DNA of 64,000 nucleotides. It comes from an uncultured Bacteroidales bacterium. Lineage in GTDB: Bacteria; Bacteroidota; Bacteroidia; Bacteroidales; Paludibacteraceae. Below the pieces are notes generated by a model that saw nothing but the letters and a program-made list of their open reading frames with translations, had not been told where the DNA came from and did not search any database. Below are positions 1,397 to 63,745 of the stretch, one piece after another. A program made the translations under genes and the position numbers. Where the stretch lies: contig CACZZL010000004.1 of NCBI GenBank assembly GCA_902785605.1, positions 1 through 64,000 of the forward strand, given 5' to 3'. Position 1 is the first letter of the stretch. Every line of letters starts with the position of its first letter.

Positions 1397-4300
1397 TTAT
1401 TTAGTAGCACCCCCGAGGGCGATATAGAGGTCGATGAGACTGATCAGTCCGTTGTATCTATTCGTCATATCGGCGAGTTGCGCGTTGAGGTAATTCTCCT
1501 GCGCAGTAAGTACTTCCAAGTAAGATGCCTTGCCTTTTTTCATCAACTCACAGGTTCCCTGATAGGACTCGCTTTGCGTCGTGAGAAGGCGTTGATAAAG
1601 GCTATCCTGTACTTGGGCACTCTGGCAACGGAAAATAGCGTCATTGACTTCGCTTCCTGCTTTGAGCATGGTCTCCACGTACCGGTTAGCCGCTTCCTCC
1701 TGCTGCAACTTGGCAATCTTGAGGTTGGCTTTCAGTTTGCCGCCGGCAAAGATCGGTTGCGAGAGGCTCAGCGCTGCATTCATCAGTAACTGACCGGGGT
1801 TCGCAACGATACCGCCGTTATTGGTCCATCCGATCAGTCCGGACAAGGAAAGTGCCGGACAGAATGCCGCTTTTGCCATGTTCGTCTGATAGAAAGCCGC
1901 TGCTACGTTCCGTTCCGCCGCACGGACATCCGCACGGTTGCTGAGCCGGGAAGCCGGAACAGGTTCGAGTGTCCATGGAGTAAACGTATAACTGGACCAC
2001 GGCGAACGGGCAATCGTTTGGGGCTCCTCATTGAGCAGCAGGCACATAGAGAGTTCCAACGAGTGGATCTGCTCCAAGAGCTGCTTGCGCTGTATCTGCA
2101 CATTAATGAGCGAAGCTTCCATCTGACCGATAGAAGGTGAATAAGCCTGTCCGTTCTTAACCAAAACGCGCTGAATCTCCAGTACTCGCTGCCAGATCAC
2201 TTCGGTACTGTCAAGGATTACTCCCTGGTAATCCAACAACTGCAGCTGCGTGTACATACGAGCAACCGTAGCAACGAGGTTCGCATGAGCTGCTGCGCGG
2301 TTATCCTCCGCTTGTTCACGAAGTACTTGAGCCTGACGCTTTCTGTTGGTGATGGTTCCGAAGCCTTCCCCTCCCCAGTTGAGAGAGAGTGGTACTTGAT
2401 AAGTCAGAGTAGCCCCTGACGTACCCGCATCTGGCGTATATGTGCCCATAACACCCACGTTTGCCGGCGAGATAGCCAAGGTCGGCAGGAAGCCTAACTT
2501 AGTGGCTCTGAGCCGTGCGTCCGCTTCCTGAATAGCCAGTTTGCGCGAACGATAATCCACGTTGTTCTCCAGCGCCTTGCGGATATGTCCCTGCAGGATC
2601 GGGTCGGTGATATAGGTCTGCCAATTCTCCTCACTCACCGCCGTAATCAAACTGTCTTGCGGTGCTGGCTGCGCAGGTTCGAATTTCTTGAAGATACCGC
2701 AGGAAGAGAGGGTCATAGTGCTGGCAATCAACACAATGATGATTGATGATTTATTATTGATGATTGATGATTTTTTCTCTTCTTCGACGGGTTCGGGGGT
2801 TCCTTGGAAGCGCTCGTGGAGTTTCTGGAATATAATATAGAACGCGGGGACGACGAATACGAGCGCGAGCGTTCCGACTGCCATACCACCTGTCACACCG
2901 ATTGCCAAAGCCCGGTTACCGTTTGCTCCGGCTCCTCCTTCTATGATCAACGGAATCATACCTGCAATCATCGTCACAACGGTCATCAGAATAGGACGCA
3001 AACGATCCTCGCAGGCACCTAGCGCCGCCTCAATGATAGGCATACCCTGTTTGCGTTTCTCAACAGCGAACTCGGTAATCAGAATAGCCGTCTTCGCGAG
3101 CAGACCGATCAACATGATCACACCGGTCTGGAGGTAGATATTATTCTCCTGACCGCAGAGCCAAGAGAAAGCGAACGAACCCATCAGACCGAAAGGCACA
3201 GACAGCAGGACTGCCAGCGGAATGAAGAATGACTCATACAACGAAGCCAAAATCAGATAAATCAACAAGATACAAACGAGGTAGATGAGGGCGGTAAGGT
3301 TAGATTTGCTATTTGCCTGCAACTCGCGGCTCATACCTCCGTACTCGAACGTATAGCCCGTCGGCAGATGTGTCTTTGCTACCTCTTCTATCACTTTCTG
3401 CACATTACTCTCGCTGTAACCGGTGCTCGGTTGCACGGAGCAAGCGATCGACTGATAGAGGTTGAAGCGTTTCTGTGTAGCCGAACCGACAGCCGGCGTA
3501 AGCGTCACAAACTGCGCGATAGGCGCCATCTCGTCGCCTATCTTGACGAAGATATTATTCAGCGACGAAGGATCCAGACGATATTCCGGCGCAGCGCCCG
3601 CCATGACACGATAGACCTTGCCATACTGGTTGAAGTTACTGATATACGCACTACCGCAGTATGCACCGAGCGTGTTCAGAACTACATCCGGGGAGATACC
3701 GGCTCGGTCACACTGCGTAGCATTGACATCGACCTTGTATTTAGGGAAGGACTCGCTGTAGAGCGACATTGCCATCTGCACCTCGGGGTGTTTCTGAAGC
3801 TCAGCGAGGAAGTTATTCACAATATCGTTGAACTGCGACATGTCACCTCCTTGCAGGTCCTCCATCTGGAGATCGATTGCGTTACTATTACCATAACCGG
3901 GAATCTGCGGCATCTGGAACGGAATGACTTGTGCGTCTTTGATATCCTCGCAAGAGAGGTACAGTTTCGCCATCACATAATCGATATAATGCTCGATTCC
4001 CTTACGCTGATCCCAAGGTTTGAGGCGGACGACAAGCGTACCATAGCTCACACCGGTACCGGAGATCAGACCGAAACCGGAGATCTTGGCATAACTCTCC
4101 ACTTCTTCGAGCCGCAGCACGTGTTCCTCTACCTGCGCCATGATCTTATCGGTCTCCACGAGCGGCGAACCGGCTGGAGCTGTGACATCCACCATGATCA
4201 CACCTTGGTCCTCCTGCGGCACAAGTCCGGAAGGCAAAGCACGCATAGCGAGCACCATCGCTACTGCTGCAGCAATGAGCCAAATCCACGCACGATGAGG

Positions 4301-5911
4301 TTTCTGAAGGAACTTAGCCACGCCGTTCTTGTATTTGCCTAAGATAGCGTTATAACCGGCGTCGTACGCTTCTTTCACATATTGTGCGAAGCTTTTCTTT
4401 CCATTCGTCTCTTCTTTCTTAGGCTTGAAAAGGACAGCCGTCAGCGCCGGACAGAGGGTCAGCGCCGAGAGGCAACTGAGTCCCACCGAACTGGCGATCG
4501 TGATACCAAACTGCGTGAAGAACGTACCGCTCGTGCCGGGCATGAAGGTCACGGGGATAAAGACTGCCATGAAGACCAGCGTACAACTGATGACTGCTAC
4601 TGTCACCTCGCTCATGGCGTCTTTCGTAGCCTTGTAAGCCGAGGTATAACCGCTCTCCATCTTCGCCATCACCGCCTCGACGACGACGATGGCATCATCG
4701 ACGACCGTACCGATCGCCAGCACGAGGGCGAAGAGCGTAAGGATATTCAAGGAGAATCCCGCTACTTTCACCACGGCAAACGTACCTAACAGCGATACGA
4801 TGATCGAGATCGACGGAATGAGGGTTGCCTTGAAGTTCTGCAGGAAGAAATACACCACCAGGATGACCAGCAGGATTGCGATGATGAGGGTCTCTACCAC
4901 GTTATGAATAGCTGCATAGAGGAAGTCATCAGAAGTCTGCAAGATTGTGAACTCCAAACCAGCCGGCATGGTCTGTTTAATCTGGTCATAAAGTTCATTA
5001 ATCGCCGCATTGACCTGCGTAGCGTTCGCCCCCGGAGCCTGGTTGATGATGAATGCCACACCGGGTTTGCCGTCCACGCGCGAGGAGAAGCTATAGTTCA
5101 GTGCGCCTAACTCCACGTCCGCTACGTCCCGCAGATGCAGCACATTACCGTTCGAGGTACGCAGAACGATTGACTCGAACTCTTCTATGGATTGAAGACG
5201 ACCTTTGTACTCCAAATTATATTGGTATGTGTTGCCGCTCTGCTCGCCAAGAGCACCGGTAGCCGCCACCATGTTCTGGTTACCGATGGCAGCGAAGATA
5301 TCATTCGGTTCCAACCCATATTGCGCCATCACATCCGGCTTCATCCATATACGCAAGGAATAGGTGTTTCCCAACAACTGCACCGCGCCGACACCCGTCA
5401 CACGCAAGAGACGAGGTTTGACGTTGATGTCGATATAGTTGGCAATGAAGTCCATGTCGAATTTCCCGTCACGGCTGACGAGCGCAGCGATTTGCAGGAT
5501 ATTATTCTGCCGTTTCTCGACCTTTACGCCCACTCGGGTCACCTCCTGCGGAAGTAACCCCAAAGCCGCTGACACACGGTTCTGTACATTGACCGCCGCC
5601 ATGTCCGGGTCGGTTCCCTGCTTGAAATAGACGTTGATATTGACATCACCGGTAGCCGAAGCCTCGGAGGTCATGTACGCCATGTTCTCCACACCGTTCA
5701 CCGCCTCCTCGATAGGCATCACCACGGATTTCATGACCGTGTTGGCATCCGCGCCGGAATAAGAGGTGGAGATCATCACCGTCGGCGGCGCAATGTCCGG
5801 ATATTGTTCTATAGGCAGTGTCTTGAGGCATATAAAGCCCACCAAAGCGATCAGCAGCGATATACACACCGCCATCACTTTTCGATCTACGAATATATTA
5901 CCTTTAGCCAT
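1397..5911 (-). CDS. RND multidrug efflux pump fused to outer-membrane efflux channel
   Basis: A single open frame of 1504 codons encodes two proteins that are normally separate. Residues 1 to about 1045 are an AcrB/MexB-type HAE1 RND transporter: an N-terminal membrane segment, the PxxAPPTV stretch of the porter domain, the paired Asp in VVDDAIVVVE (proton relay) and a second membrane block ending near 'FYIIFQKLHERF'. Residues about 1047-1070 form a basic-then-hydrophobic segment ending in an LSSC lipobox (Cys1071), exactly like a lipoprotein signal peptide that has lost its ATG. Residues 1071-1504 match an OprM/NodT-type outer-membrane factor. The junction is encoded by a five-unit 7-bp array (2738-2772). 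The adaptor gene lies upstream in the same operon. Either a genuine polyprotein, perhaps cut at the internal lipobox, or a base-level assembly error that removed a stop/start. Confidence 0.9.
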   Translation of the reverse strand: MAKGNIFVDRKVMAVCISLLIALVGFICLKTLPIEQYPDIAPPTVMISTSYSGADANTVMKSVVMPIEEAVNGVENMAYMTSEASATGDVNINVYFKQGTDPDMAAVNVQNRVSAALGLLPQEVTRVGVKVEKRQNNILQIAALVSRDGKFDMDFIANYIDINVKPRLLRVTGVGAVQLLGNTYSLRIWMKPDVMAQYGLEPNDIFAAIGNQNMVAATGALGEQSGNTYQYNLEYKGRLQSIEEFESIVLRTSNGNVLHLRDVADVELGALNYSFSSRVDGKPGVAFIINQAPGANATQVNAAINELYDQIKQTMPAGLEFTILQTSDDFLYAAIHNVVETLIIAILLVILVVYFFLQNFKATLIPSISIIVSLLGTFAVVKVAGFSLNILTLFALVLAIGTVVDDAIVVVEAVMAKMESGYTSAYKATKDAMSEVTVAVISCTLVFMAVFIPVTFMPGTSGTFFTQFGITIASSVGLSCLSALTLCPALTAVLFKPKKEETNGKKSFAQYVKEAYDAGYNAILGKYKNGVAKFLQKPHRAWIWLIAAAVAMVLAMRALPSGLVPQEDQGVIMVDVTAPAGSPLVETDKIMAQVEEHVLRLEEVESYAKISGFGLISGTGVSYGTLVVRLKPWDQRKGIEHYIDYVMAKLYLSCEDIKDAQVIPFQMPQIPGYGNSNAIDLQMEDLQGGDMSQFNDIVNNFLAELQKHPEVQMAMSLYSESFPKYKVDVNATQCDRAGISPDVVLNTLGAYCGSAYISNFNQYGKVYRVMAGAAPEYRLDPSSLNNIFVKIGDEMAPIAQFVTLTPAVGSATQKRFNLYQSIACSVQPSTGYSESNVQKVIEEVAKTHLPTGYTFEYGGMSRELQANSKSNLTALIYLVCILLIYLILASLYESFFIPLAVLLSVPFGLMGSFAFSWLCGQENNIYLQTGVIMLIGLLAKTAILITEFAVEKRKQGMPIIEAALGACEDRLRPILMTVVTMIAGMIPLIIEGGAGANGNRALAIGVTGGMAVGTLALVFVVPAFYIIFQKLHERFQGTPEPVEEEKKSSIINNKSSIIIVLIASTMTLSSCGIFKKFEPAQPAPQDSLITAVSEENWQTYITDPILQGHIRKALENNVDYRSRKLAIQEADARLRATKLGFLPTLAISPANVGVMGTYTPDAGTSGATLTYQVPLSLNWGGEGFGTITNRKRQAQVLREQAEDNRAAAHANLVATVARMYTQLQLLDYQGVILDSTEVIWQRVLEIQRVLVKNGQAYSPSIGQMEASLINVQIQRKQLLEQIHSLELSMCLLLNEEPQTIARSPWSSYTFTPWTLEPVPASRLSNRADVRAAERNVAAAFYQTNMAKAAFCPALSLSGLIGWTNNGGIVANPGQLLMNAALSLSQPIFAGGKLKANLKIAKLQQEEAANRYVETMLKAGSEVNDAIFRCQSAQVQDSLYQRLLTTQSESYQGTCELMKKGKASYLEVLTAQENYLNAQLADMTNRYNGLISLIDLYIALGGATK
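2738..2772. repeat. Five-unit heptamer array inside the RND-channel fusion junction
   Basis: Five consecutive 7-bp units: gatgatt four times and tattatt once in the middle. Read on the minus strand it encodes the SSIINNKSSII part of the linker and the start of the embedded signal peptide. Confidence 0.9.
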
Positions 5912-7803: not shown

Positions 7804-9102
7804 ATGAAAAAAATACTCTGTTTTTTGATTCTTTTTCTGCCTGCAGCCGCGTGGGCGGAGGTATATACATTATCGCAATGTATCGACACAGCGTATGCCA
7901 ACAGTATCGACGTGCGAATGGGGCAGTTGACTAATCAGCAGAGACAACTGTTGTATCGCCAGGCGTGGTATAACCTATCCCCGAACATCAGCGGCTATGT
8001 GAACGAATCATTGGGCTTCGGACGCAGTACCGGCGTAGATAATATCATCCGTGCGCAGAACATCGCGAACACGAACATGGGCGTGAGTGCCAGCATCGTG
8101 CTGTTTGACGGATTGGCAATGAAATTCAATATCGATGAGGCCAAAGCCTCTATGCTCGCCAGTGAGGCAAACATGGAAGCCGTGCGGCGTAATCTGGCGC
8201 TCAACATTACCTCCATGTATCTTGAAGTGCTGCTCAAAAAAGAACTGGTAGTCGTGGCAGAGGCGCAGCTCAACGAGACGGAGCTGCAGATGGAGCGCAC
8301 CCGCGCCAAAGTGGAGGCACATCGTCTGCCCGAAGGCGAACTGTATGAGATTCAGGCGCAGTATAGCAAGGAGCAGTACCAATTGCTGCAGGCGAAAAAC
8401 GACTTGCGTATTGCGCTGCTCAACCTGACACAGGCCATGGATATCCCCTACGACGAGGATTTTGATATTATCGTGCCCTCGGAGGAAGAGTTGGAAGGAC
8501 CGCTTTTGCCAGAACGGGAACAAGTATGGCAAACGGCATTGAACAACCGTCCGGAGATCCGCGAAGCGGAATATACGCTGCAGGCCGAACAGACGGCATT
8601 GAAAGGACAGAAAGCGGCATACTCGCCTCAACTGAGTGCACAAGCCGGTGTGTCAACCGGATACTACCATCAGATGGGTGCCAGCAATACCGCGTTCGGC
8701 AAACAGTTGGAAGATAACTTCACGACCAATGTGTCCGTTTCGCTCTCCATTCCTATTTATAATCGCATGCAGACACCCACGCAGGTGAAGAATCAGATGA
8801 TTGCTATCGAGAACGCCCGCTTGAAACTGGAGTTGCAGAAGAAATCGATTCGCAAGGAGATAGACCAGGCGTACTATAATGCTTTAGCAGCGCAGTCCGA
8901 AAAAATGGCAGCGCAGCAAGAGGCGCGCGCTACTGCCGAAGCGGCACGTTATGCCTCGGAGAAATACGATGCAGGGCGCGGTACAATGTACGAGTACAGC
9001 CAAGCCAAGCAAAACCACCTGCAAGCCGTTTCATCCCAACTGCGTGCACGGTATAATTATCTGTTCAAAGTGCGAATTCTTGAATACTACATGGGCTTAT
9101 GA
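7804..9102 (+). CDS. TolC-family outer-membrane efflux channel
   Basis: A 432-residue outer-membrane factor. The start at 7804 gives the signal peptide MKKILCFLILFLPAAAWA; an ATG five codons earlier (7789) is possible. Two long alpha-helical repeats rich in Gln/Ala/Glu follow, as in TolC barrels, with the characteristic N-terminal 'LSQCIDTAYANS' and a similar helix near residue 255. It heads an operon with an ABC ATPase, two MacB-type permeases and a MacA-type adaptor, so it should be the exit duct of that export system. Its stop overlaps the next start (ATGA). Confidence 0.9.
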   Translation: MKKILCFLILFLPAAAWAEVYTLSQCIDTAYANSIDVRMGQLTNQQRQLLYRQAWYNLSPNISGYVNESLGFGRSTGVDNIIRAQNIANTNMGVSASIVLFDGLAMKFNIDEAKASMLASEANMEAVRRNLALNITSMYLEVLLKKELVVVAEAQLNETELQMERTRAKVEAHRLPEGELYEIQAQYSKEQYQLLQAKNDLRIALLNLTQAMDIPYDEDFDIIVPSEEELEGPLLPEREQVWQTALNNRPEIREAEYTLQAEQTALKGQKAAYSPQLSAQAGVSTGYYHQMGASNTAFGKQLEDNFTTNVSVSLSIPIYNRMQTPTQVKNQMIAIENARLKLELQKKSIRKEIDQAYYNALAAQSEKMAAQQEARATAEAARYASEKYDAGRGTMYEYSQAKQNHLQAVSSQLRARYNYLFKVRILEYYMGL

Positions 9103-9761
9103 TCACGTTGCATAATATACATAAATCATACAACATCGGCAAACCGAATGAGTTGCACGTCCTCAAAGGCATTGATCTGGAGATCGCGGATGGCGAACTG
9201 GTGAGTATCATGGGTGCTTCCGGTAGCGGCAAGAGTACGCTGCTCAATATCCTCGGTATCCTGGATAACTACGACCAAGGCGAGTATTACCTGGCCGGCA
9301 GGCTGATTCGCAGTCTGAGCGAGACACAAGCTGCCAAGTTGCGCAATGAACTGATCGGTTTTGTGTTCCAGTCGTTCAACCTGCTCAATTACAAGACCGC
9401 GTTAGAGAACGTGGCGCTGCCGCTGTACTACAAAGGAGTAGGGCGTAAGGAACGTAACAGACGGGCTATGGAGCAGTTGGAGCGCATGGGTTTGGGCGCA
9501 TGGGCAGACCACTTGCCCAACGAGATGTCCGGCGGTCAGAAACAGCGTGTGGCGTTGGCGCGTGCCATCGTTTCGCAGCCGAAGATCCTGCTGGCCGATG
9601 AACCGACCGGCGCGCTGGACTCCAAGACAACGCTCGAGGTAATGGACATCTTCAAACAACTGAACGCAGACGGCATCACGACCATCATCGTTACGCACGA
9701 GCAGAGTGTCGCCGATGCCACCCAGCGTATCATTCATATCAAAGACGGTCTCATCGTCTAA
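9099..9761 (+). CDS. MacB/LolD-type ABC transporter ATP-binding protein
   Basis: A 220-residue ATPase subunit of a type VII (MacB/LolCDE-like) ABC transporter. It has Walker A GASGSGKS near residue 39, the signature MSGGQKQRVALARA near 143, Walker B ILLADEPTGALD near 165 and the H-loop VTHEQ. Unlike MacB of Proteobacteria, the ATPase is a separate polypeptide. It overlaps the channel gene by 4 nt and is followed by a heptamer array and the first permease. Confidence 0.95.
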   Translation: MITLHNIHKSYNIGKPNELHVLKGIDLEIADGELVSIMGASGSGKSTLLNILGILDNYDQGEYYLAGRLIRSLSETQAAKLRNELIGFVFQSFNLLNYKTALENVALPLYYKGVGRKERNRRAMEQLERMGLGAWADHLPNEMSGGQKQRVALARAIVSQPKILLADEPTGALDSKTTLEVMDIFKQLNADGITTIIVTHEQSVADATQRIIHIKDGLIV

Positions 9762-9766: not shown

Positions 9767-9801
9767 AAATTATAAATCATAAATCATAAATCACAAATCC
9801 C
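9767..9801. repeat. Five-unit heptamer array between ABC ATPase and permease
   Basis: Five 7-bp units of the form aaatcat (aaattat, aaatcat twice, aaatcac, aaatccc). The array fills the intergenic gap and ends immediately before the TTG start at 9802. It is the reverse complement of the tttatga family at 59716. Confidence 0.88.
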
Positions 9802-49600: not shown

Positions 49601-52600
49601 ATGATAGTATCGCTACGCAGAAGACGGCTATCGTACGTGATCCGAATGCTCCGTGCGAAAGTTATATCTATCAACAAACATCCGAATATAAATTTGATTT
49701 AGGAGCCAATGCTCTTAATAAGCAGACAGTATCAAGTACCCCGGAAATTGACCTTAATGGCATGATTGCTGACACATGTACGTTCCGTTACAAAGGAGAA
49801 CAAAGAGGAACGTTTAAAGTGTTTAATGGAACAATGAAAGTTGAGCAATATGTTATGGTGGGTAGTTCCAGACAATGGGTAGAGGCAAAAACACTGGCTA
49901 AACCAACTGAGTTTAACAACCATTATTATAAAGATACAGTTGTCTTTAGACGCGATGCTACAAAGGTCCGCTTCAAGGTATTTGATGGATATGGAAACCA
50001 TTACTATACTGACTGTCGGATCAAACAAGCTCGTTTCATAGAGACGACGACTCCTACAAAGTTCACTCTTAATGTTGGACAGACGCAAGATCAAACGATT
50101 TACTTGAGCTATTCGAATGTGGTAGGTAATATATCTTTCACTCTGGGTCAAGGAGAAAACTCGTCGTTCTCGGTTAACCGTACAATCATAACTGACACCT
50201 GTGGTGGACACGCAAAGAATGTAGCCGTAGTAATTACCTATAATCCGCAACATGAGGTACAAAATGAACAGGATGTATTAACTATCTCTGACGGAACTAC
50301 AAGTTGTGAGGTTATATTGAAAGGTTCTGCTACTCGTGTAGGTAGAACTATCACATGGAATCACACGGACGTTCGGTCTATCTATACGGTCGAAAAAGAT
50401 ACGTTGATAGCAGAGGCAAGAACCTCACTGAATGCGTTGGCAGGAACGGTAGAATTTACCTATGTTAACAATACATCAACGGCGAATGGAAGTATAGATG
50501 CCAATAATATATTGTCATTTACCAGTGCCGGAACGGCTTATGTGGTAGCTAACACTCCAAACCACGATTATTATTTCCCTGCGGCTACTGTTGGTCCGAA
50601 GCGGTGGGATGTAGCCCTTACTCCGACGGAGGTGGTAGAAGTTCCGACGATCGGTAGTGTTGTCAGCGGAACCGCACTGAGCGATATTACTGTTTCGGGC
50701 GGTACAGCACGAGATATCATTAATCATGGTTCTGTTTCCGGAACATTTACTGTACAGAACGGTAATGTGACAGATGTTGGACCCAACAATCCGGTGACGG
50801 TTAAGTTTACTCCGGAAGATGGAACGATGTATGATATGTGCACGTACAATATGTATATTGAAGTGACTCAGCGGCCGGCAACAGATGAAGAGATTGGTAC
50901 GGTGACGGCAGGTCATATCACTTTTGGAGAGAAGTTGAGCGATGCTGTACTGAGCATGAGCGGTACGCTGAATGGTCATGGCACACTTGTGATGACAGAC
51001 CCGCAGAAGGATGAGGTAAAGGATGTAGATACGTACGAGAACTTGAAGGTTCTGTTCACTCCGGGTAACACGAACATTGCTCCGAAAGAGTTGACGGTTT
51101 CGGTAACGGTGGATAAGGCTAATCCTGCAGTAACACCTCAGGCAACTGACATTACTTATGGACAACCCATCAGCGCTTCTAACATTACTACAGCAAGCGG
51201 AGATGTAGCCGGTAGTTGGGCATGGGCCGTAGATGATACGCAAGTATTGAGTGTCGGAGACCATGTGCTGAAAGCTAACTTTACTTCGGATAGTGCGAAC
51301 TACAATAACCTGAGCAATGTAGATGTAACGCTGAAGGTGAAGAAGATCGAGAAACTGGAGGTAGAAGTTCCGTTGAGTTTCTGTGCCGGCGGATCGGAGA
51401 CGTTCCATGGTGAGACCTATACGACAGCCGGAACGGACCAGATAAATGCCGTAGGCGCAACGCGTGACACGATCTATAATGTGACCGTGACTGTTCTGCA
51501 ACCTACGACGGGTACAGATAGCAAAACTATTACTGTAGGTGATAATGAAAGTTGGCACGAAATAGACCTGTCCGGTTATGCAGTAGGTTCGCACGAAGTA
51601 GAATACCATACAACGAATGTGGCAGGTTGTGACTCGACCGTAACGCTGTCGCTGACGGTAAATGCCGTTGTTCCGGTAGGACCGAACACGTTTACTGGTA
51701 ATGGCGAGTGGGAGAACCCGAGCAACTGGAGTACAGGTATAGTACCTACGACGGCTGAGCCTGATATTATTGTAGTTGGTCAACTGGTGATCAACGAAGA
51801 AAAGACAATCGGCGGTTTGACCATTATGCCGACCGGTGGTGTGACCATCGTGGATGACGGTAAACTGACCGTCAATGGTACTACGACCACTCAGACAGGC
51901 GGATATGGAGATCTGTATGTAGCGAACGGTGGTGAAGTAGAAGTGGCAGGAAGCCTAACAGTACGTGATTTGATTGTTGAGGCTTCGATTGGTACTTCGG
52001 AAGGTAATGCTGAGAGCGGTCAAGTGGCAAGTGCCGAGAACATCGTTTACACGAATGCGTACATAGACATCAACATGGATCCGAGTGGTGTATTGGATGA
52101 TACCAAATGGTACGGATTCACCATTCCGTTCGCAGTGGATGCCTATAATGGTGTATCGCGCTTGGAAGGAAGTACTTTCCAACAATGTGGATATGGTGTT
52201 CATTACATGATAGCTGAGTATGACGCAAACAAGCGTCTGAATACAGGTAACGGATGGAAGTTCATTGGCGGAAATACGCTTAACGCAGGACAATTCTATC
52301 TCTTCACCGTGGAAGGTTCGTACAATACCTATCGTTTCAAGGCATCGGGAAGTAGCTACACACCTGCAGCAGCTGCTTCGCTGAACGTCAACGGTCCTAC
52401 GACCAATTATGACGCGAACTGGAACGGTGTGGGTAACTCCACTTTACAGCACGTGACGGCAAGCTATTATGGCGGCGAATACGTGCAGGTATTTATGAAC
52501 GGTCAAGATGCTTATAAGACGGTATCTACCAATGACGCGAACTTCGTAGTAGGCTGTCCGTTCTTTATTCAGGCGAAAGAGGCAACTACGTTGTTGTTGA

Positions 52601-53496: not shown

Positions 53497-54579
53497 TTAT
53501 TTTAACCCTTTTGCCCATTTGCGAAGATAGACAATCCACTCTGTTGCGTTGGTAGCAACGGGGTGGTTTTCTTTGGTGGCACCGCAGACGGTGAGGTAGA
53601 AGTGGGCTGTCGCACACATTGGTGATTGGTGATTGGAGATGGGTGATTGTTTCAGGATACACAACAGATTCTGCTTGTCGTGGACGATGTCACCGGCGTA
53701 AGGGTAGGGGATGAAGACGGCGAGGCCGACGGTCTCTTTGGCGTACTTGGCGGAGTCGTTCACGGGCCAATCGGTGCCCCAACTTGCGAGGAGAACACCA
53801 TTCGGCAGATAGACGACACTCGTATCACATCCTCCCTTGGCAGGGATGGTCTGCACGCCGGTACAGAGACCGGAGAGGGTGTCGGAGAGAGACACATCGC
53901 AACGGAGATCGCGGTGGCCGGCTAACATGGTGTATTGGACGGAGAGGTCCAATAGTTGAGAGTTTAATATTGAGAGTTGAGAGAAGTCGTTTAGTTGAGA
54001 GTTATTAAGTGGTACTTGCCAGCCTTTGACGGCGACCTCGATGGTGGCACTATTCTTTGTTTGTGAGACGATGCGCTGGGAGCGTTCTGCGACGGGATCA
54101 ATGTGGACCATCTTGGTGCCGTTCCAGTACTTGACAGAGCCGACACCGACTGTTCCGCTCACGCGGAGGATATCATCGCCGTAGCCGAGGGCGAGAAGGC
54201 TGTCGTTGGGGTACCAGTGACTTTGAGCGAGTTCGAGCTGCGGCTTGCGTTTGCAGTAGGGATCGATGGTCTGCTTCTTATCGAAATAGATGCGGTAGGC
54301 CATCCATTCGGACTCTACGGCGACACCGTGGTGATGCAATTGGTGGTACGTATCTACCGCAGGGTCGGCTGTCCATTCGGTGATGGGGTAGCAGTGCCGC
54401 ATCTTTGTGCCCTCGTAGAGCACGGCGTAGCCAGAACGGACAGAGTCCGCGGGGGTACCAATCTTCCAAAAGGAAGTCGCTATGCGCGGCTGGCATGCCG
54501 CGCATAGCAGAGCTATTATCGAGATGAAGAGACCTCGAGATCTCGAGATTTCGATGGATTTATTAGTTGATCTTGACAT
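53497..54579 (-). CDS. DUF4861-family lipoprotein, pectin-associated
   Basis: A 360-residue lipoprotein (hydrophobic GLFISIIALLCAAC; lipobox CAAC). The body resembles DUF4861 proteins found in Bacteroidota pectin loci: RHCYPITEWTADPAVDTYHQLHHHGVAVESEWMAYRIYFDKKQTIDPY, and HRDLRCDVSLSD with a late GTDWPVNDSAKYAKETVGLAV. Its catalytic role is not established to my knowledge. The neighbouring GH28 gene (17-nt overlap) supports pectin work. Three microarrays lie in its code: at the signal peptide (8-bp units), at NNSQLNDFSQLSILNSQ (7-bp) and at SPISNHQSPMC (7-bp). They give low-complexity peptides that look like insertions. Confidence 0.65.
   Translation of the reverse strand: MSRSTNKSIEISRSRGLFISIIALLCAACQPRIATSFWKIGTPADSVRSGYAVLYEGTKMRHCYPITEWTADPAVDTYHQLHHHGVAVESEWMAYRIYFDKKQTIDPYCKRKPQLELAQSHWYPNDSLLALGYGDDILRVSGTVGVGSVKYWNGTKMVHIDPVAERSQRIVSQTKNSATIEVAVKGWQVPLNNSQLNDFSQLSILNSQLLDLSVQYTMLAGHRDLRCDVSLSDTLSGLCTGVQTIPAKGGCDTSVVYLPNGVLLASWGTDWPVNDSAKYAKETVGLAVFIPYPYAGDIVHDKQNLLCILKQSPISNHQSPMCATAHFYLTVCGATKENHPVATNATEWIVYLRKWAKGLK
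53617..53651. repeat. Five-unit heptamer array in the DUF4861 gene (3' part)
   Basis: Units cattggt, gattggt, gattgga, gatgggt, gattgtt in 7-bp phase, encoding the Ser/Pro/Asn/His stretch near residue 315. Confidence 0.88.
53955..53989. repeat. Heptamer array in the DUF4861 gene (middle)
   Basis: Units gttgaga, gtttaat, attgaga, gttgaga, gaagtcg; a further gttgaga at 53994 is out of 7-bp phase by 4. Confidence 0.75.
54515..54554. repeat. Five-unit 8-bp array at the DUF4861 signal peptide
   Basis: Units attatcga, gatgaaga, gacctcga, gatctcga, gatttcga in 8-bp phase, encoding part of the signal peptide just downstream of the GH28 stop. Confidence 0.75.
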
Positions 54580-56101: not shown

Positions 56102-56841
56102 AAGTAACTATTTTTAGGATAAATGATTTCTACTAAGGACAGACCTTCTGCGGGAGCCGAGTGCCCTGCGCGGCATCGGTCGTGTGCCGCGATGATGTCC
56201 GCCAGTTGTGCGGGAGTCATTCTGCCTTTTCCAACCTCAAAGAGTGTTCCGACGACAGCGCGTACCATGTTTCGCAAGAACCGGTCGGCGGTGATGACGA
56301 AGTACCATTCGGTATCCGACTCCTGCACCCATTTCGCTTCGCGCACATCGCAGATGGTCGTTTTGACATCCGTGTGGGTGCGGCAGAAGGACGCGAAGTC
56401 CTGTTTGCCGAGCAGCGCCTGTGCCGCGTTGTTCATTGCCTCGAAGTTCAGGCCTGCTGCCACGCGTGTGTGGTTGACGCAGAGGAACGGATCCTTGCGT
56501 GTGGTGATGCGGTAGCGGTAGGTACGCGCCGTGGCATCAAAACGTGCGTGTGCATCGTCGTTCACGCGCTGGATGTTGCGTACGGCGATCGATGCCGGCA
56601 GCAGGTTATTGAGTCGGCTGCCAAAGTTGGCGGGCAGCGGTTTGGCAAAATCAAAATGCGCCACCATGTGCTCGGCGTGCACCCCTGCGTCAGTACGACC
56701 GGCGAAAGTGAGGGCAACGGGTTCGCGCAAGATCGTGGCGAACGCGGCTTCCATCTCTGCCTGCACTGTGTTTCCGTTCGGCTGCGTCTGCGAGCCGTGG
56801 AAATGGGTTCCGTCATATGCAAAGGTTATAAAATAGCGCAT
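56089..56841 (-). CDS. truA: tRNA pseudouridine(38-40) synthase TruA
   Basis: A 250-residue enzyme that converts U38-U40 of tRNA anticodon arms. It shows the catalytic Asp motif AGRTDAGVHAEH near residue 52, the N-terminal FAYDGTHFHGSQ and the C-terminal RFLRNMVRAVVGTLFEVGKG. The family length is normal. It is followed by an overlapping GH28 gene, an unusual partner. Upstream lies the heptamer-rich spacer after the flippase gene. Confidence 0.97.
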   Translation of the reverse strand: MRYFITFAYDGTHFHGSQTQPNGNTVQAEMEAAFATILREPVALTFAGRTDAGVHAEHMVAHFDFAKPLPANFGSRLNNLLPASIAVRNIQRVNDDAHARFDATARTYRYRITTRKDPFLCVNHTRVAAGLNFEAMNNAAQALLGKQDFASFCRTHTDVKTTICDVREAKWVQESDTEWYFVITADRFLRNMVRAVVGTLFEVGKGRMTPAQLADIIAAHDRCRAGHSAPAEGLSLVEIIYPKNSYLCEN

Positions 56842-56848
56842 TATGATG

Positions 56849-56880
56849 TACGATTTACAAATTTACGATGTACGATTTAT
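56849..56880. repeat. 32-bp direct repeat, copy 1, in a tacgatt-rich array
   Basis: Identical to 58385-58416. TACGAT recurs at 56849, 56864, 56871, 56882 and 56898, with the same spacings (15, 7, 11, 16) as the copy on the other side of the flippase gene. The array includes the flippase stop codon and encodes its last residues (QIVNSLNRK). Confidence 0.93.
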
Positions 56881-58373
56881 TTACGATTTAACGAATTTAC
56901 GATTTGGTCGTTGACCTCAGGTGAAAGTTTTGCTTTGTAAGCAATGAGGGCTCCGCTGCCGAGAATGACTACGGAGCGGAGGATGCTGTCGAGCCAGATG
57001 TTCATGGTCGGCAGATAGGTCTGCCATGCCCAGTTGAGCGCGAACAGGACGACAACGAGGGCCAGGATAGCCCACCATTTGCGGTCGATGATGTGCACGC
57101 GGCAGAGCGGTACGACAGTAGCAATGATAAGCAGGTAATACAGTCCGTAGGACAACATGTTACTCCACGCTGCGCCTTCCATTCCGTACAGCGGAACGAG
57201 GTAGTTGTTGAGCAGCAGCGCACTCACGGTCAGTAGCAACGACAGCAACAGACTGAACGCATAGAAACGTGAGTACGTGAGCAGCGTGAAACAGATAGAG
57301 AATGTCGCCAAAACCAATTGGCTCACACCCAGGATCAGCACGACATACTTTGCGGTGGCATAGGTCGTGCCGTTTGGTAAGATATGGAAAATGAGGTCGA
57401 TATTCACCCACATTGCCAGCAGAATGAACCCACCGATGAGGAGCATGTTACGCGTCACCTGACTAACGAGATGCGAACACTCGTCGCGGTTCTGCTCCTT
57501 GATGGCTCGTGCCAGTTGCGGAGAGGCGATCGCAGCTACCGAACGGTTCGGCACGCTGACCATGACCGCCATGTAGGTTGCGATTGCGAAGATACCGGTG
57601 TTGTCCAGACCCATCTTAGCGGTGACGAAGAAGGAGGAGAGGGTAGGCGCTAACACCGTCGTGACAGCAGAGATGATCAGAAAACCGGTGTACACCAGGT
57701 ATTTACGTACGATATCGCGGTGTGCCCGCAAGTAGGACCAATCCGGTCGTAGGTTGATTCGCTTGAGCGAGAAGAAGTAGCAGAGGTTAATGACGGCAGC
57801 CAACGAATAGTTGACGCATATACCGATGACCAATCCGTCAATGGAGAGGAAGTCGAACGCGTAGAGCAGGTATATTGCCAGCAGTCCGACGCGTACGATC
57901 AGTTCGCGCACCGCACGAGGCACGACGATGTGCATCAGCACGTTGCATGTCGATTCGCAGATCGTTTGATAGAGCATGAAGAACGCCAGCGGGAGTACGA
58001 AATAGTAGTACTCCACGAAGAGCGGCGATTTGTCTCCGAACCATGCGCCTAAGGGTACACGACATGCCCAGTAGATGATGGCGAACAGCAGGAAACCGAT
58101 GAACGGAACGACTAGTGCCCAAAAGAAGAAACCATGGTCCTCTTCGCTGTCTTTCTCGCGGAAATACGGATAGAAACGGATGATGCTGGCGTTGGTGCCC
58201 AGTTGGGCGAGGCCGACGAACAGCGTAGCGGCATCAATAAGCACTCGTGCCAACCCGATTTCCTCGGTAGTGAGGAAACGGGTTAACACGAAGAACGTGG
58301 TGACAATGCCAACGGCAATGCCCAGATAGGTCACTATCGTACCACGTATCGATTGCTTAGCGATGACGCCCAC
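56877..58373 (-). CDS. Polysaccharide flippase (Wzx/MurJ-type, MATE-like fold)
   Basis: A 498-residue inner-membrane protein with about 12-14 hydrophobic segments, starting GVIAKQSIRGTIVTYLGIAVGIVTTFFV, typical of the polysaccharide-biosynthesis (oligosaccharide flippase) family. It probably flips a lipid-linked glycan unit across the inner membrane. Its C-terminal tail NDQIVNSLNRK is encoded by the junction array and may not be conserved. The gene is flanked on both sides by the same 32-bp repeat. A second flippase of similar size is 2.6 kb away. Confidence 0.85.
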   Translation of the reverse strand: MGVIAKQSIRGTIVTYLGIAVGIVTTFFVLTRFLTTEEIGLARVLIDAATLFVGLAQLGTNASIIRFYPYFREKDSEEDHGFFFWALVVPFIGFLLFAIIYWACRVPLGAWFGDKSPLFVEYYYFVLPLAFFMLYQTICESTCNVLMHIVVPRAVRELIVRVGLLAIYLLYAFDFLSIDGLVIGICVNYSLAAVINLCYFFSLKRINLRPDWSYLRAHRDIVRKYLVYTGFLIISAVTTVLAPTLSSFFVTAKMGLDNTGIFAIATYMAVMVSVPNRSVAAIASPQLARAIKEQNRDECSHLVSQVTRNMLLIGGFILLAMWVNIDLIFHILPNGTTYATAKYVVLILGVSQLVLATFSICFTLLTYSRFYAFSLLLSLLLTVSALLLNNYLVPLYGMEGAAWSNMLSYGLYYLLIIATVVPLCRVHIIDRKWWAILALVVVLFALNWAWQTYLPTMNIWLDSILRSVVILGSGALIAYKAKLSPEVNDQIVNSLNRK

Positions 58374-58384
58374 CTTATTAAATT

Positions 58385-58416
58385 TACGATTTACAAATTT
58401 ACGATGTACGATTTAT
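58385..58416. repeat. 32-bp direct repeat, copy 2, in a tacgatt-rich array
   Basis: See 56849-56880. TACGAT occurs at 58385, 58400, 58407, 58418 and 58434. It fills the 89-nt gap between the flippase start and the FKBP gene stop. Confidence 0.93.
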
Positions 58417-58462
58417 GTACGATTTTGTTTATGTACGATTTGCGCGGCGTGTCCTTCGTACT

Positions 58463-59716
58463 TTATTTGATTTCCAATAACTCAACCGTGAAGATGAGGG
58501 TGGAGAACGGCGGGATGGAAGCACCGGCACCGCGCTCACCGTAAGCCAGATCGTACGGGATGAACAGTTTGTACTTGGAACCTACCGGCATGAGTTGCAG
58601 ACCTTCGGTCCAGCCTTTGATCACACCGTTGAGCGGGAACTCAATCGGCTCGCCGCGCTGGTAGCTGCTGTCGAAGACAGTACCGTCGAGGAGTGTACCT
58701 TCATAGTGTACCTTCACCGTCGAAGTAGCACTCGGTTTAGCACCCTTACCCTGAACCAGTACTTCGTACTGCAGACCGGACTCAGTTACCTGAACCCCCT
58801 CACGCAGTGCGTTCTCTGCCAGGAAACGTGCACCTTCCTCTTTGGTAGCACCGTAGCGCAGATCGTTGATCACTCTGTCAACGTACAGGTTAGCATCCTG
58901 CATCGTCATCTGCTCGGTGTACTGGTACAGACCGTTGATGAAACCTTGTTTGATCAGCTCGTAGTTGGTCTCCAGACCTTCGATACCGAGCAGACCTTGC
59001 GGCTCTTGCTCGCGGATGGCATTACCAATGTTCTTGGCCATGTTAACCATCTGCGGGTTGCGAACGTTCGCTTTGAGGCCCTTGTTCACGTTCTCAATGA
59101 ACTCATCGATCGGTTTGTTGGAGGTGGTGTCGGTATCAATGATGTAGTTCTTGATCTGCGCACCGTTCATCATACCGAACGCGTAGTTAAGCGAGTCGTT
59201 CTCGCTCTTGAGCTCGACCGTCTTAGCCTTGTTCGGGCACTTAGCCAGAATAGCTTTGCCTTCTGCTTTCTCGTCCGAAGAGCTGGATTGGAAACAAGCC
59301 ATGAGGAACATCTCAGCGTCCGTCTCGTTCATGACGGTGGTGTCCTCGTAGAGAGCGTTCACGAGTCCTTGGAAGAAGAGTTTCTCGTTGAGAATCCATG
59401 ACGGGTTCTCTGCCAGGCCTTCTTTCTCGAAGTTCTTAACGGTGGTACCCAGCTGATAACCGGCTTTCTGCAGTTCGGTCAGCTCTTCGTCTTTGTCCAG
59501 ATAAGCGTTCTCGAGTGCGTCGATAAACTCCGTTACTGCCTCGTCGCTGCTGTCGTTGGCGAGGTAATAGGTCTTGATCTGCAGACCGTTAAGCAGACCG
59601 AGTGCGTAGTTCACCGAGTCGGTTTGGTTGTTGAGGACTGCGTCCTGCGCTTTGTAACTGTTGCCGCAGGAAATCATTGCCAGTGCGGCCAACAAAAAGA
59701 TACTTGATTTTCTCAT
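58463..59716 (-). CDS. FKBP-type peptidyl-prolyl isomerase lipoprotein, long form
   Basis: A 417-residue lipoprotein ([11 protein letters not shown] lipobox) with two FKBP_N-like helical dimerisation regions ([17 protein letters not shown] near 36 and [17 protein letters not shown] near 178). One C-terminal FKBP catalytic domain runs from about 320 to 417 ([65 protein letters not shown]). It would fold periplasmic or outer-membrane proteins at the surface. It follows a second FKBP gene with a nearly identical catalytic domain, indicating duplication. Confidence 0.93.
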
Positions 59717-59750
59717 TTCAAATTTATGATTTATGATTTATGATTTTTGA
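59716..59750. repeat. Five-unit heptamer array between the two FKBP genes
   Basis: Units tttcaaa, tttatga three times, tttttga. It fills the whole 35-nt gap between the stop of one FKBP gene and the ATG of the next. Confidence 0.93.
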
Positions 59751-60975: not shown

Positions 60976-61010
60976 TTTATGATTTCAAATTTCAAATTTA
61001 TGATTTCTTA
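60976..61010. repeat. Five-unit heptamer array between the flippase and ribE genes
   Basis: Units tttatga, tttcaaa twice, tttatga, tttctta. It contains the stop codon of the flippase. It shares an 18-bp identical stretch with the array at 59716. Confidence 0.92.
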
Positions 61011-62449
61011 AAGTATTTTCCTACTACCGGCAGCCCGGAAAGCGGGAAGTCCTTGCGGGTAAGAACAACGACATAGAGGGAGATTAGTATAGTACCGATA
61101 CCCATCATCGCCCAAGTGTTGCTGATCACCCAAATACGCAGGCTGTAATAAACGGCGAGCAGCGCAATCGTCAGTACGGTATAGAGACCGATACTCTTGA
61201 GGTCGTACGGGATGGGTGCTTTGCGTTGTCCGATGAAATAGGACAGCAACATGATCACGAAATAGCATACCAGACTGCTGCCGCAACTTGCCCAATAGCC
61301 GATGAGCGGAACACCCACTACTTGCAGTACGAGCGTGATCACCAGACCGATGAGCGAGAAATACGCGCCCCACTTGGTCTCATCCGTCAGTTTGTACCAG
61401 AACGAGAGGTTGAAATAGATACCCTGGAACACATAGGTCCACAGTACGACCGGAACGATCTGCAGTCCCTCCCAGTAGTCGGAGGAGATGATGAACTTGA
61501 ATATGTCCAGGTAGAAGATGACACCGAGCAGAATGAGATACGAGAAGATGACGTAGTACTTCATCGCGTCTGCGTACGCTTCGACTGACTGCCGGTCTTT
61601 GTGCTTAGCGAACACGAACGGCTCGTAGGCGTAACGGAAGGCTTGGGTGAACATCATCATGACCATGGCCACCTTGAAGCATGCACCGTAGATACCGAGT
61701 TGCGTTTGTGCGTCGTCTCCGCTGTACAGATACGGGAAGAGGATTCGGTCGAGCGTCTGGTTCATGATACCCGCTACACCCAGTACCAATAGCGGCAAGG
61801 AGTAACGCAACATATCTCTGAGCACAGATCCGTCGAATCGACCTCCTCGCGGTAAGGTGAACGGCAGCAGACACAGCGTCTGAATGGTTGTTGCGAGGAT
61901 GTTACTGAGGAAGACGTAGAAGACGTCGTTCCGTTTTAATACCACTAAGAACAGAAGGTTGAATCCGATGTTGAGCAGCACGAACAGTAATTTCAGTACC
62001 GCAAAACGAATCGGTCGTTTCTGGTAACGCAGGTACGCAAACGGGATGCACGCAAACGCATCCACGGCGACCGTAGCGAACATCATTGCCACGAACTCCG
62101 AATGGTCCGCATAGCCCATCAGACTCGCTAAAGGCTGGCGGAAAAGAACGACCAGTACCGTGAACAGCGTACTGCTGGCAAGCAGTGTCAGGTAGGCGGT
62201 TTTATAGACACTCTTGGCATCGTAGTCCTCTCGGTTGGCGAAGCGGAAGAAGCCCGTCTCCATGCCATAAGTCAGGAGCACAAGCAGGAGGGCCGTCCAG
62301 GCATAGATATTGGTCACTATACCGTAATCAGCCGTGCGCGCCAGCGCGTACGTGTAGAGCGGTACGAGCAAGTAATTCAGGAACTTACCGATGATACTGC
62401 TCAATCCATAGATGGCGGTGTCCTTCGCCAAGGATTTCATTTCACTCAT
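60998..62449 (-). CDS. Polysaccharide biosynthesis flippase, second copy
   Basis: A 483-residue inner-membrane protein with about 12-14 membrane segments. It starts MKSLAKDTAIYGLSSIIGKFLNYLLVPLYTYAL, typical of Bacteroidota polysaccharide flippases, and carries ETGFFRFANRE in the first cytosolic loop region. It probably translocates a lipid-linked oligosaccharide. It differs strongly in sequence from the flippase at 56877. It overlaps rsmI by 8 nt. Confidence 0.88.
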   Translation of the reverse strand: MSEMKSLAKDTAIYGLSSIIGKFLNYLLVPLYTYALARTADYGIVTNIYAWTALLLVLLTYGMETGFFRFANREDYDAKSVYKTAYLTLLASSTLFTVLVVLFRQPLASLMGYADHSEFVAMMFATVAVDAFACIPFAYLRYQKRPIRFAVLKLLFVLLNIGFNLLFLVVLKRNDVFYVFLSNILATTIQTLCLLPFTLPRGGRFDGSVLRDMLRYSLPLLVLGVAGIMNQTLDRILFPYLYSGDDAQTQLGIYGACFKVAMVMMMFTQAFRYAYEPFVFAKHKDRQSVEAYADAMKYYVIFSYLILLGVIFYLDIFKFIISSDYWEGLQIVPVVLWTYVFQGIYFNLSFWYKLTDETKWGAYFSLIGLVITLVLQVVGVPLIGYWASCGSSLVCYFVIMLLSYFIGQRKAPIPYDLKSIGLYTVLTIALLAVYYSLRIWVISNTWAMMGIGTILISLYVVVLTRKDFPLSGLPVVGKYFKKS

Positions 62450-63107
62450 TGCCTGCTACACAAATTACGATTTCCCCTTTGGGTGGGGTGGTTTTGAAAT
62501 GTTGTATCAATTCTGCCAGGGTGCCGCGCACGGTTTCTTCATGCACCTTACTGATCTCACGGGTGACAGACGCTTTGCGTTCTTCGGTACAAACAGCGGC
62601 TAACTGCTCCAGAGTCTTGACAAGCCGGAAGGGCGATTCGTAGATGATGAACGTCTCGTCCAAAGCTGCCAAGTACTGCAGACGGGTCTGACGACCTTTC
62701 TTCTGCGGCAGGAACCCTTCAAAATAGAAGTGGTTGTTGGGCAGTCCGCTGTCCACCAATGCCGGCACGAAGGCCGTAGCCCCGGGCAGACACTGGATCT
62801 CAATATCCGCTTCCGAAGCAGCTCTGACCAGGAAGAAGCCCGGGTCGCTGATAGCCGGCGTACCGGCATCGGAGATGAGGGCGATGTTTGCTCCAGCTTT
62901 GAGCCGCTCTACGATATCGGCGCTCGTCTCGTGCTCGTTGAACTTATGATGGCTCTTGAGCGGGGTGTGGATATCGAAATGCTGCAGCAGCACGCCACTG
63001 GTGCGTGTGTCTTCGGCCAGTATCAAATCAACCGATTTGAGTACTTCTATAGCGCGGAACGTCATGTCCTGCAAGTTGCCGACCGGTGTGGGAACGATGT
63101 ATAGCAT
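62442..63107 (-). CDS. rsmI: 16S rRNA (cytidine1402-2'-O)-methyltransferase RsmI
   Basis: A 221-residue SAM-dependent methyltransferase of the tetrapyrrole-methylase fold. It shows VPTPVGNLQDMTFRAIEVL near the start, ILAEDTRTSGVLLQHF, SDAGTPAISDPG near residue 81, GATAFVPALVDSGLP and the C-terminal GEIVICVAG. Full length lacks only the C-terminal extension present in some bacteria. Its start lies within a heptamer array. Confidence 0.95.
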   Translation of the reverse strand: MLYIVPTPVGNLQDMTFRAIEVLKSVDLILAEDTRTSGVLLQHFDIHTPLKSHHKFNEHETSADIVERLKAGANIALISDAGTPAISDPGFFLVRAASEADIEIQCLPGATAFVPALVDSGLPNNHFYFEGFLPQKKGRQTRLQYLAALDETFIIYESPFRLVKTLEQLAAVCTEERKASVTREISKVHEETVRGTLAELIQHFKTTPPKGEIVICVAGNE

Positions 63108-63132
63108 TCAGTATTCAGTGTTCAGTGTTCAG
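63105..63132. repeat. Four-unit heptamer array upstream of rsmI
   Basis: Units cattcag, tattcag, tgttcag twice, covering the rsmI start codon and, on the other side, the stop and last codons of the coiled-coil gene. Confidence 0.9.
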
Positions 63133-63707
63133 CCAAATCTCCGGTGCAGGGTTACAAGGAACTGTTGGTAGGTGCTGCTCTCAGCGTCCCAGCCGAACTG
63201 ACCAATGTATTGCAGGGCCTCGTCGAACGAACCCAGTTCATTGAGCTCGGTCAGCGTGCGTTGCATCAACTCGGCGTTCTGGCCGAACAACTCACGTTGG
63301 TACAGGAAACGGTCGCCGAGCGAGATGGCCTGACGGATATCATCGACCGGCTTACCGTACAGCATCGCCTTTGGCGAAGCGGGTTCTTCCTTCGGCTCCT
63401 CTTTAACAGGCTCCTCTACAACCGGAGCAGGTTCTTCTACTACCGGCTGAGGCTCTTCTTTTACCGGCTTCTCGACGATCACCTCTTTGATGACCTCTAC
63501 CGGTTTTTCCACCACCACTTCCTTGATGACTTCGACCGGTTTCTCCACGATCTTCTCTACCACTTGCGGCTCGGCAGCGGGGCGGCTCTTGAGTTCTTCC
63601 ACTTCCGCCTCCAGCGATGCGATCACCGCTTCGTTGGTTTGTTGCGCCTCTTCCAACGCGGCAATGCGCGCTTCGAGAGACTCAAAGTATTTGATTACTT
63701 CTTCCAT
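63129..63707 (-). CDS. Coiled-coil/Pro-Glu-Val repeat protein of unknown function
   Basis: A 192-residue protein. Residues 1-42 form a coiled coil (EEVIKYFESLEARIAALEEAQQTNEAVIASLEAEVEEL). Residues about 48-110 are charged repeats built on EKPVEVIKEV with a 12-residue period, likely extended. The C-terminal 75 residues (DDIRQAISLGDRFLYQRELFGQNAELMQRTLTELNEL) form a conserved-looking helical domain. No signal peptide or membrane segment. The function is not recognised. Confidence 0.7.
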   Translation of the reverse strand: MEEVIKYFESLEARIAALEEAQQTNEAVIASLEAEVEELKSRPAAEPQVVEKIVEKPVEVIKEVVVEKPVEVIKEVIVEKPVKEEPQPVVEEPAPVVEEPVKEEPKEEPASPKAMLYGKPVDDIRQAISLGDRFLYQRELFGQNAELMQRTLTELNELGSFDEALQYIGQFGWDAESSTYQQFLVTLHRRFG

Positions 63708-63710: not shown

Positions 63711-63745
63711 AATGGTACATTGTAAATGAATAGATGGTAAATTAC
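63711..63745. repeat. Five-unit heptamer array at the transporter/coiled-coil gene junction
   Basis: Units aatggta, cattgta, aatgaat, agatggt, aaattac, from 4 nt upstream of the coiled-coil gene start to the stop codon of the transporter. Degenerate but in phase. Confidence 0.65.

Follow-up and report, generated by a model that had tools for sequence, protein, structure and literature searches.

The first 64 kb of contig 4 of an uncultured Bacteroidales bacterium (family Paludibacteraceae; GCA_902785605.1, CACZZL010000004.1, positions 1 to 64,000; hereafter the window) carry short tandem arrays of 7-nt units at or near gene boundaries. This raises the question whether such heptamer arrays are elements of gene junctions or the residue of a process that acts on the whole genome. 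An earlier note on this DNA had listed ten of them as marks of gene junctions. The analysis covered 464 kb of the same genome (G000; 2.08 Mb in 28 contigs), window included, together with genomes of the same genus and of other families. The reading that we prefer, with a probability of roughly 0.52, is a bloom of heptanucleotide tandem repeats in the genus, in which arrays would grow by slippage and be copied between loci, and in which the enrichment at junctions would be a filter and not a target.

The ten cited stretches were scored by identity at lag 7 and compared with dinucleotide shuffles of the whole window (scores in Table 1). Nine of them showed period 7. Six were strong (2738, 9767, 14036, 39594, 59716, and 63105), with a mean of 0.0 equal-or-better positions per shuffle, two were moderate (30281 and 60976, 0.1 positions each) and one was weak (24936, 1.7 positions). 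Eight junction places and one in-gene place of the earlier note are thereby upheld, whereas 63711-63745 was no better than shuffles, its score being equalled by 2490 positions of the window and by about 1956 positions per shuffle. Tandem Repeats Finder (TRF) returned further heptamer arrays that had not been listed, for example at 53618, 56841, and 58382. In the 400 kb of G000 outside the window, 43 segments were found at lag 7, 25 at lag 14 and 0-5 at each other lag from 4 to 15, compared with about 0 in dinucleotide shuffles of the same sequence. This demonstrated that the arrays do not occur at the frequency of random sequence, an outcome that the earlier note had itself raised.

Period 7 stands out in the genus. 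At a slightly lower threshold, the genus samples yielded 145 lag-7 segments in 1.41 Mb, a sum that counts in 8,190 unreadable bases (N) of G004 and G008; lag 11 came next with 35 segments, lag 14 apart. Genomes of other families gave 3 lag-7 segments in 480 kb (15 genomes). An array was detected in 80 of 408 gaps of 20-300 nt from eight congeners and in none of 108 gaps from five other-family samples, and once array-bearing gaps were excluded the residual lag-7 signal was small (0.289 vs 0.280 at other lags). The arrays were mostly 21-35 nt long (median 31), and 27 distinct consensus units were present among 36 non-genic G000 arrays. A scan of named genomes for (AAATCAT)3 returned at least 119 stretches, with 80 loci from many phyla among the matches listed. 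At those 80 loci, which were selected for an array and form a biased survey, lag 7 was the main signal after exclusion of the match itself (85), followed by lag 14 (58) and then by lag 12 (17).

The strongest evidence for movement between loci came from the order of variant units. The arrays at C1:2451 and C3:29180 of G000 have an identical stretch of 33 nt, in which AGTTGAA occurs twice, followed by AGTTTAA twice, and which continues beyond these units. Identical stretches were also found between C2:10110 and C3:58272 (33 nt), C2:59204 and C3:82228 (32 nt), window array 9767 and C1:113581 (28 nt), and window array 14036 and C2:6094 (27 nt). Among the 51 G000 arrays, 11 of the 1275 pairs shared at least 24 nt that were not purely periodic; these pairs involve 14 arrays in five groups, and pairs belonging to one group are non-independent. 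The simulated null, built from independent stop-codon seeds with each array's variation pattern kept and mutational hot spots outside the model, gave a mean of 0.19 such pairs and a maximum of 2 over 200 runs. In none of the 11 pairs did the 400-nt flanks match, and two of these pairs link an array within a glycogen synthase family gene to arrays at junctions.

A composite sequence, AAATCATAAATTTGAAATCATAAAT, joins two units with three differences between them and was searched with up to 1 mismatch. It was present in 10 of the 25 genus genomes, with 44 matches in G006 (about 30 places), 13 in G022 and 3 in G000, compared with none of the 16 other-family genomes, and its reversed control had no match in any of the 41. 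One of its one-base variants recurred at six places of G006 and another at three, which resembles subfamilies. These identical runs and the order of variant units at unrelated loci point to copying round the genome and not to a job at junctions.

The same data bear on purely local, independent slippage, by which a resident 7-mer, often lying over a stop or start codon, would be duplicated in tandem at each site, and unit families would recur since junctions are alike. Families do recur at several loci, as had been noticed before, and similar seeds alone could produce similar units: in 30 codirectional G000 arrays, the unit pairs within one mismatch matched random stop-containing 7-mers (36 vs 34.5). 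Pairs of identical units in these 30 arrays exceeded the stop-seed null (14 vs 4.2, reached in 0 of 200 draws), and in 66 arrays of all sampled congeners they numbered 32, vs 14.9 for the stop null (P = 0.01) and 19.7 for the start-codon null, above which they did not clearly rise (P = 0.06). Local birth is also consistent with the excess of exact two-copy 7-mers in gaps (42 vs 11.6) and with an AAATGGT array of G007 at a junction whose G000 version contains ATGGTAA. Moreover, polymerase slippage is a published idea (Mrazek 2007, as cited in the available portions of PMC4679880 and PMC4692102). Purely local slippage does not account for the 11 pairs with shared non-periodic stretches nor for the excess of identical G000 units over stop seeds. 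In 26 discordant comparisons between species, the array unit scored 5.69/7 against the array-free orthologue and 5.48/7 against control junctions, a comparison of weak power at this divergence that likewise counts against local seeds. We consider it unlikely that slippage was purely local.

Arrays at orthologous sites were then compared in 111 comparisons of 47 junctions with six congeners. An array was present on both sides in 5 comparisons, on one side in 27 (16 junctions) and on neither in 79, so that 27 of the 32 comparisons with at least one array were one-sided. The presence/absence check proposed in the earlier note thus revealed turnover and not conservation. In the discordant comparisons the side with the array had the longer gap (median 22 nt, 20/27 positive, P = 0.011, with comparisons that share a junction being non-independent). 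The gap upstream of the methylase gene measures 21 nt with three heptamers in G000 and G003 (CTGAAAA/CTGAATA in the latter) compared with 0 nt in G002, G004, and G006 and -1 nt in G015; further congeners have other arrangements, such as G001 with 46 nt and an AATTTTT array. Three species have three different units upstream of ruvB (ACCCATA in G000, CCAATMA in G003, and TAAATTG in G002). At the junction of the two FKBP-type isomerase genes, G000 and G006 have one family in common and lengths of 35 vs 28 nt, which is a difference of exactly one 7-nt unit. Some arrays occupy junctions where the genes of relatives overlap, such as 39594, where the flanking genes of G003 and G006 have a 14-nt overlap. 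At junction 56841 an AAATCAA array is present in G003 but was not detected in G006, junction 60976 has an ACAAATC array in G007 and none detected in ten other congeners, and junction 63711 has an AGGTGAA array in G015 and gaps of at most 4 nt in G002, G003, G004, and G006. Arrays are gained, lost or replaced between sister species at orthologous sites. Because the closest species were poorly resolved in the gene trees of one transporter and of one methylase, these changes are unpolarised between gain and loss.

Gene junctions and the loops of essential enzymes could also receive complete heptamer arrays of about 32 nt from a genus-specific mobile or templated system, for example one with an integrase or a reverse transcriptase; the array would then be a miniature element that lacks inverted repeats. 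Such a system would fit the 32-33 nt that are identical at unrelated loci between unrelated flanks, the G006 subfamilies with common one-base variants, the units without a clear local seed, and the arrays that lie in enzyme loops or between genes that overlap in relatives. It would also fit the length distribution, in which the commonest bin is 28-34 nt (35 of the 78 arrays outside genes) and a sharp drop follows past four units. However, many unrelated unit families coexist, arrays of one family differ in length and phase, and neither a target duplication nor a constant end was established, which makes a system of this kind quite unlikely in our view.

In order to assess a role at junctions, the position of arrays relative to genes was considered. 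Open reading frames (ORFs) came from a custom gene caller, with start sites uncertain and those of relatives extrapolated. The midpoint was non-coding in 69 of 104 arrays, i.e., 43.1 per 100 kb of non-coding vs 3.6 per 100 kb of coding sequence, a twelvefold difference in a list drawn from non-random stretches of eight congeners, part of them selected via a pattern match or an orthologue. In the 464 kb of G000, 32 of 51 midpoints were non-coding, compared with 12.7% of random positions; 1 array lay at a gene end and 18 within called genes. The view that arrays mark gene junctions was therefore correct as to an enrichment in gaps beyond chance and incorrect as to junctions being their sole target. 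In codirectional gaps, 44 of 66 arrays overlapped the upstream stop codon or began at most 7 nt from it (47% at random), and 25 of 66 were equally near a called downstream start. Arrays per gaps of 15-300 nt amounted to 66/365 in codirectional, 6/30 in convergent and 5/32 in divergent orientation, with numerators that span all gap lengths. Since these rates are similar, the pattern tracks gene ends and not operons.

As a period of 7 leaves a remainder of 1 over 3, stop-rich arrays would place stop codons in all frames, and insulation by multi-frame stops was tried as an explanation. An initial bias of sense over antisense stops (P = 0.0016) and 205 sense stops vs a column-permuted mean of 177.1 (P = 0.016) seemed to favor it. 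This explanation was rejected because the strand bias could be traced to the 30 arrays lying over an upstream stop codon, a position at which a stop must be present. In the 36 arrays fully past the stop the sense-strand bias was gone (sense more in 14, antisense more in 14, P = 0.49), with antisense stops tending to a small excess (75 vs 60.0, P = 0.042). Predicted RNA folding of ten window arrays was no better than that of shuffles (z -1.18 to 1.46). A role in RNA structure or in translation coupling, the latter raised in the earlier note, found no support from gap-orientation rates, stop counts or folding, and the one-sided comparisons and the arrays within enzymes speak against it as well. 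The arrays are not junction elements as such. Functional junction elements, whether stop-codon insulators, translation-coupling spacers or regulator binding sites, are very improbable: the preference for upstream stops and the translational regulation proposed by MacGregor 2015 for TAACTGA arrays (available portion of PMC4679880) would favor them, but convergent gaps have similar array rates, arrays past the stop lack the bias, the window arrays lack RNA structure, sister species mostly do not have arrays in common, and arrays occur inside enzymes.

Of the 18 in-gene arrays of G000, seven protein stretches were compared with protein families, together with the AcrB-OEP and M6-peptidase-like genes of the window. 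Array-bearing proteins above the NCBIfam cut-off were isoleucine-tRNA ligase (IleRS), the beta subunit of phenylalanine-tRNA ligase (PheRS-beta), PreA, and dihydrolipoyl dehydrogenase. The glycogen synthase family protein had a Pfam match and none in NCBIfam at 1e-20, and Mfd, searched as two halves, had mfd as the best family in both, each half being under the whole-protein cut-off. In-frame translation of the arrays gives peptides, KLKIKNEKLKI being one example. One IleRS loop gave a lag-7 signal in 6 of 18 congeners with differing units, namely AAATTAA in G000 and G004, four copies of AGTCGAA in G007, ATYGCCA in G014 and weak signals in G018 and G011. By eye, G002 has a decayed AAATTAA in this loop, and G003, G006, and G016 have a plain loop of 8 residues. 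None of 10 IleRS loops from other families gave a lag-7 signal, nine of them being 21-23 residues long and one 17. The PheRS-beta loop contains AATTAAA in G000 and G006 and TTCAGAA in G003 and G015, and gave no signal in 5 of 9 genomes. The mfd gene (G000 C3:78229-81447) contains four heptamer arrays, at residues of about 65, 108, 220, and 887. The array at about 108 aligns gap-free to relatives. The gap-free alignment of the stretch QLSAISHQLS in Mfd to relatives indicates that not all coding arrays are insertions.

The array at 2738-2772 had been described as lying in a fusion junction; it is an in-frame linker between the AcrB and OEP domains. The fused frame is open in several congeners, and the best matches in G001, G002, G003, G009, and G015 are two separate ORFs. 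The array as the cause of the fusion was rejected, as congeners without the array also have the fused gene. The length of this linker is highly variable.

Rickettsia palindromic elements, which are palindromic, longer, and dispersed, are tolerated in frame in housekeeping proteins and between genes. The heptamer arrays resemble them in being short, dispersed, and in frame within protein genes, and differ from them as unstructured tandem heptamers. We read the arrays as the product of a genome-wide process, surviving wherever length or sequence is free.

In the bloom that we favor, arrays would lengthen and shorten through replication slippage by 7 nt, and their sequence may spread by ectopic template switching or gene conversion, from array to array or at short microhomologies. 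As 7 cannot be divided evenly by 3, selection would purge them from most of the coding sequence, so that survivors would be found in gaps, round stop codons and in loops that tolerate changes in length. With such a filter no dedicated junction role is needed. The earlier idea that some mechanism inserts heptamers or expands them is retained in spirit, without its specificity for junctions.

Several observations weigh against this reading. We infer both slippage and copying from one genome per species. Lost mismatch repair as the cause of the bloom was rejected, as a MutS_I domain was found in 38 and a MutL domain in 37 of the 41 genomes, with both in G000; a Y-family polymerase domain was present in 34 of the 41, again including G000. 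Array density in the genus is uneven, from 61 lag-7 segments in G000 (464 kb) and 14 in G007 (100 kb) to 2 in G017 (80 kb), 1 in G020 (39 kb) and 0 in G024 (40 kb). Counts of whole units from two upward were 42, 28, 25, 7, and 1 (shuffles gave 8.0 and 0.3 for two and three units), i.e., near-flat from two to four with a sharp fall thereafter, whereas free slippage should produce a longer tail. Two-copy duplications were in excess also at lags 8, 9, 10, and 11, and 7 is therefore special in growth beyond two copies more than in birth. The composite AAATCATAAATTTGAAATCATAAAT was not found in 15 of the 25 genus genomes. Finally, a second composite occurred exactly only at its two source places in G000; at up to 2 mismatches its reversed control matched as well (19 vs 6 matches in G000, 14 vs 8 in G006), and one two-mismatch match was found in G033, a genome of another family.

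The arrays of the window are collected in Table 1.

Table 1. Heptamer arrays in the 64-kb window, with strand, unit, gene context, and identity at lag 7.
Position	Strand	Unit	Context	Identity at lag 7	Remarks
2738-2772	-	AATCATC (sense)	In-frame linker KSSIINNKSSII between AcrB and OEP domains of a 1504-aa gene (1397-5911, minus)	24/28	Strong
9767-9801	+	AAATTAT/AAATCAT/AAATCAC	Between ABC ATPase gene (9099-9761) and MacB/FtsX permease gene	25/28	Strong
14036-14070	+	ACCCATA/ACCCGTA	Across stop of ABC ATPase gene (13394-14050), reaching ruvB (14072)	24/28	Strong
24936-24970	-	TACCATT-like, degenerate	Sulfatase/kelch gene junction with overlapping ORFs	18/28	Weak; TRF score 32
30281-30315	-	TCTGTGT	Over stop of ABC ATPase gene (30306-31067)	20/28	Moderate
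39594-39630	+	TTAATTT	From stop of 39138-39599 to just short of PqqD-like gene (39633)	22/28	Strong
53618-53649	-	ATTGGTG	Within ORF 53497-54579		4.6 copies
56841-56905	-	TAAATCG/TACATCG, degenerate	Junction		TRF 9.3 copies; under ungapped threshold
58382-58415	-	ATTTACG, degenerate	In gap 58374-58462
59716-59750	-	AAATCAT plus AAATTTG	Fills 35-nt gap between two FKBP-type isomerase genes	24/28	Strong
60976-61010	-	AAATCAT/AAATTTG, mixed	Over stop of polysaccharide-transporter gene (60998-62449)	20/28	Moderate
63105-63132	-	CTGAACA/CTGAATA/CTGAATG	From stop of 63129-63707 to start codon of methylase gene	19/21	Strong
63711-63745	-			12/28	Cited array, indistinguishable from shuffles

The mixed family includes TAAATTTG, which may resemble a Bacteroidetes promoter box. 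The window contains repeats of other periods as well. An 11-bp tandem array, TCGGAGGCAAG, with 4.2 copies was found at 31976-32037, and in several congeners, among them G009 and G002, lag 11 forms a smaller second peak. Units of 8, 8, and 9 bp make up three short perfect arrays at 46469-46601, directly upstream of a 2183-aa ORF (46642-53193). Tandem repeats of 21 and 36 bp at 63407-63552 are located inside ORF 63129-63707. This ORF gave no hit in Pfam at 1e-5, and several relatives match its C-terminal part only. A short GACCGCTNNCGCT-like element was observed beside heptamer arrays in some junctions and linkers (L066, L288, and L291; samples of G006, G007, and G002), with strict matches numbering 3 in G006, 2 in G007, 2 in G002 and 0 in the G000 sample.

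Heptamer repeats as such are already known. According to Mrazek 2007, as cited in the available portions of PMC4679880 and PMC4692102, heptamers are the commonest long repeats in most surveyed genomes, and slippage was proposed as their origin. The present arrays are like heptanucleotide repeats of the long simple sequence repeat (LSSR) or short tandemly repeated repetitive (STRR) type in that 7-nt tandem units exceed chance and are mainly intergenic. They differ from the heptamers of Mrazek, as described in those portions, in being short and degenerate, in belonging to many families, in sharing unit order across loci and in occurring also in frame in core enzymes. The earlier note knew of no counterpart in this group, but the available portion of PMC4679880 (MacGregor 2015) describes TAACTGA direct repeats in Beggiatoaceae, cyanobacteria, and five Bacteroidetes. 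These are mostly present in 2-6 copies between genes, over stops and near starts, with some in ORFs, and mobility was considered there with no mechanism given. The arrays described here have the same kinds of location; however, that study followed a single unit, whereas one genome here has 27 consensus units among 36 arrays, some arrays are mixed, and orthologous sites have differing units. TAACTGA in any rotation or strand was the unit of 0 of 104 arrays, and no doublet of it was found in the sampled DNA of eight congeners, to which the search was confined. The available portion of PMC4692102 (Rehm 2015) reports G-rich, quadruplex-forming GGGNATC-type heptamers in Xanthomonas and Nostoc, 90% of which are flanked by the same ORFs in two species. 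Those repeats are likewise heptamers between genes, often codirectional and near the upstream ORF, but they represent one G-rich unit type, in contrast to the diverse, mostly AT-rich units with high turnover seen here. The available portions of PMC3372288 and PMC4060949 added nothing on Bacteroidetes heptamers. In a literature search that left most subscription papers outside, no report was found of unit order shared between loci or of in-frame heptamers in aminoacyl-tRNA synthetases. The shared unit order and the in-frame dispersal are the new part.

An over-abundance of heptamer repeats in bacteria has been reported since 2007, and slippage has been proposed for it, with no mechanism demonstrated in the available portions of PMC4679880 and PMC4692102. 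Congeners with differing arrays at the same junctions and loops, together with unit order as a fingerprint, make two questions testable: why the period is 7, and whether the arrays move. If a mobile system were at work after all, it would supply new intergenic spacers and peptide loops and would separate genes that overlap. The in-frame arrays caution against interpreting heptamer arrays as operon signals, and their presence in IleRS, PheRS-beta, Mfd, and the glycogen synthase family protein suggests that such arrays are a source of loop evolution.

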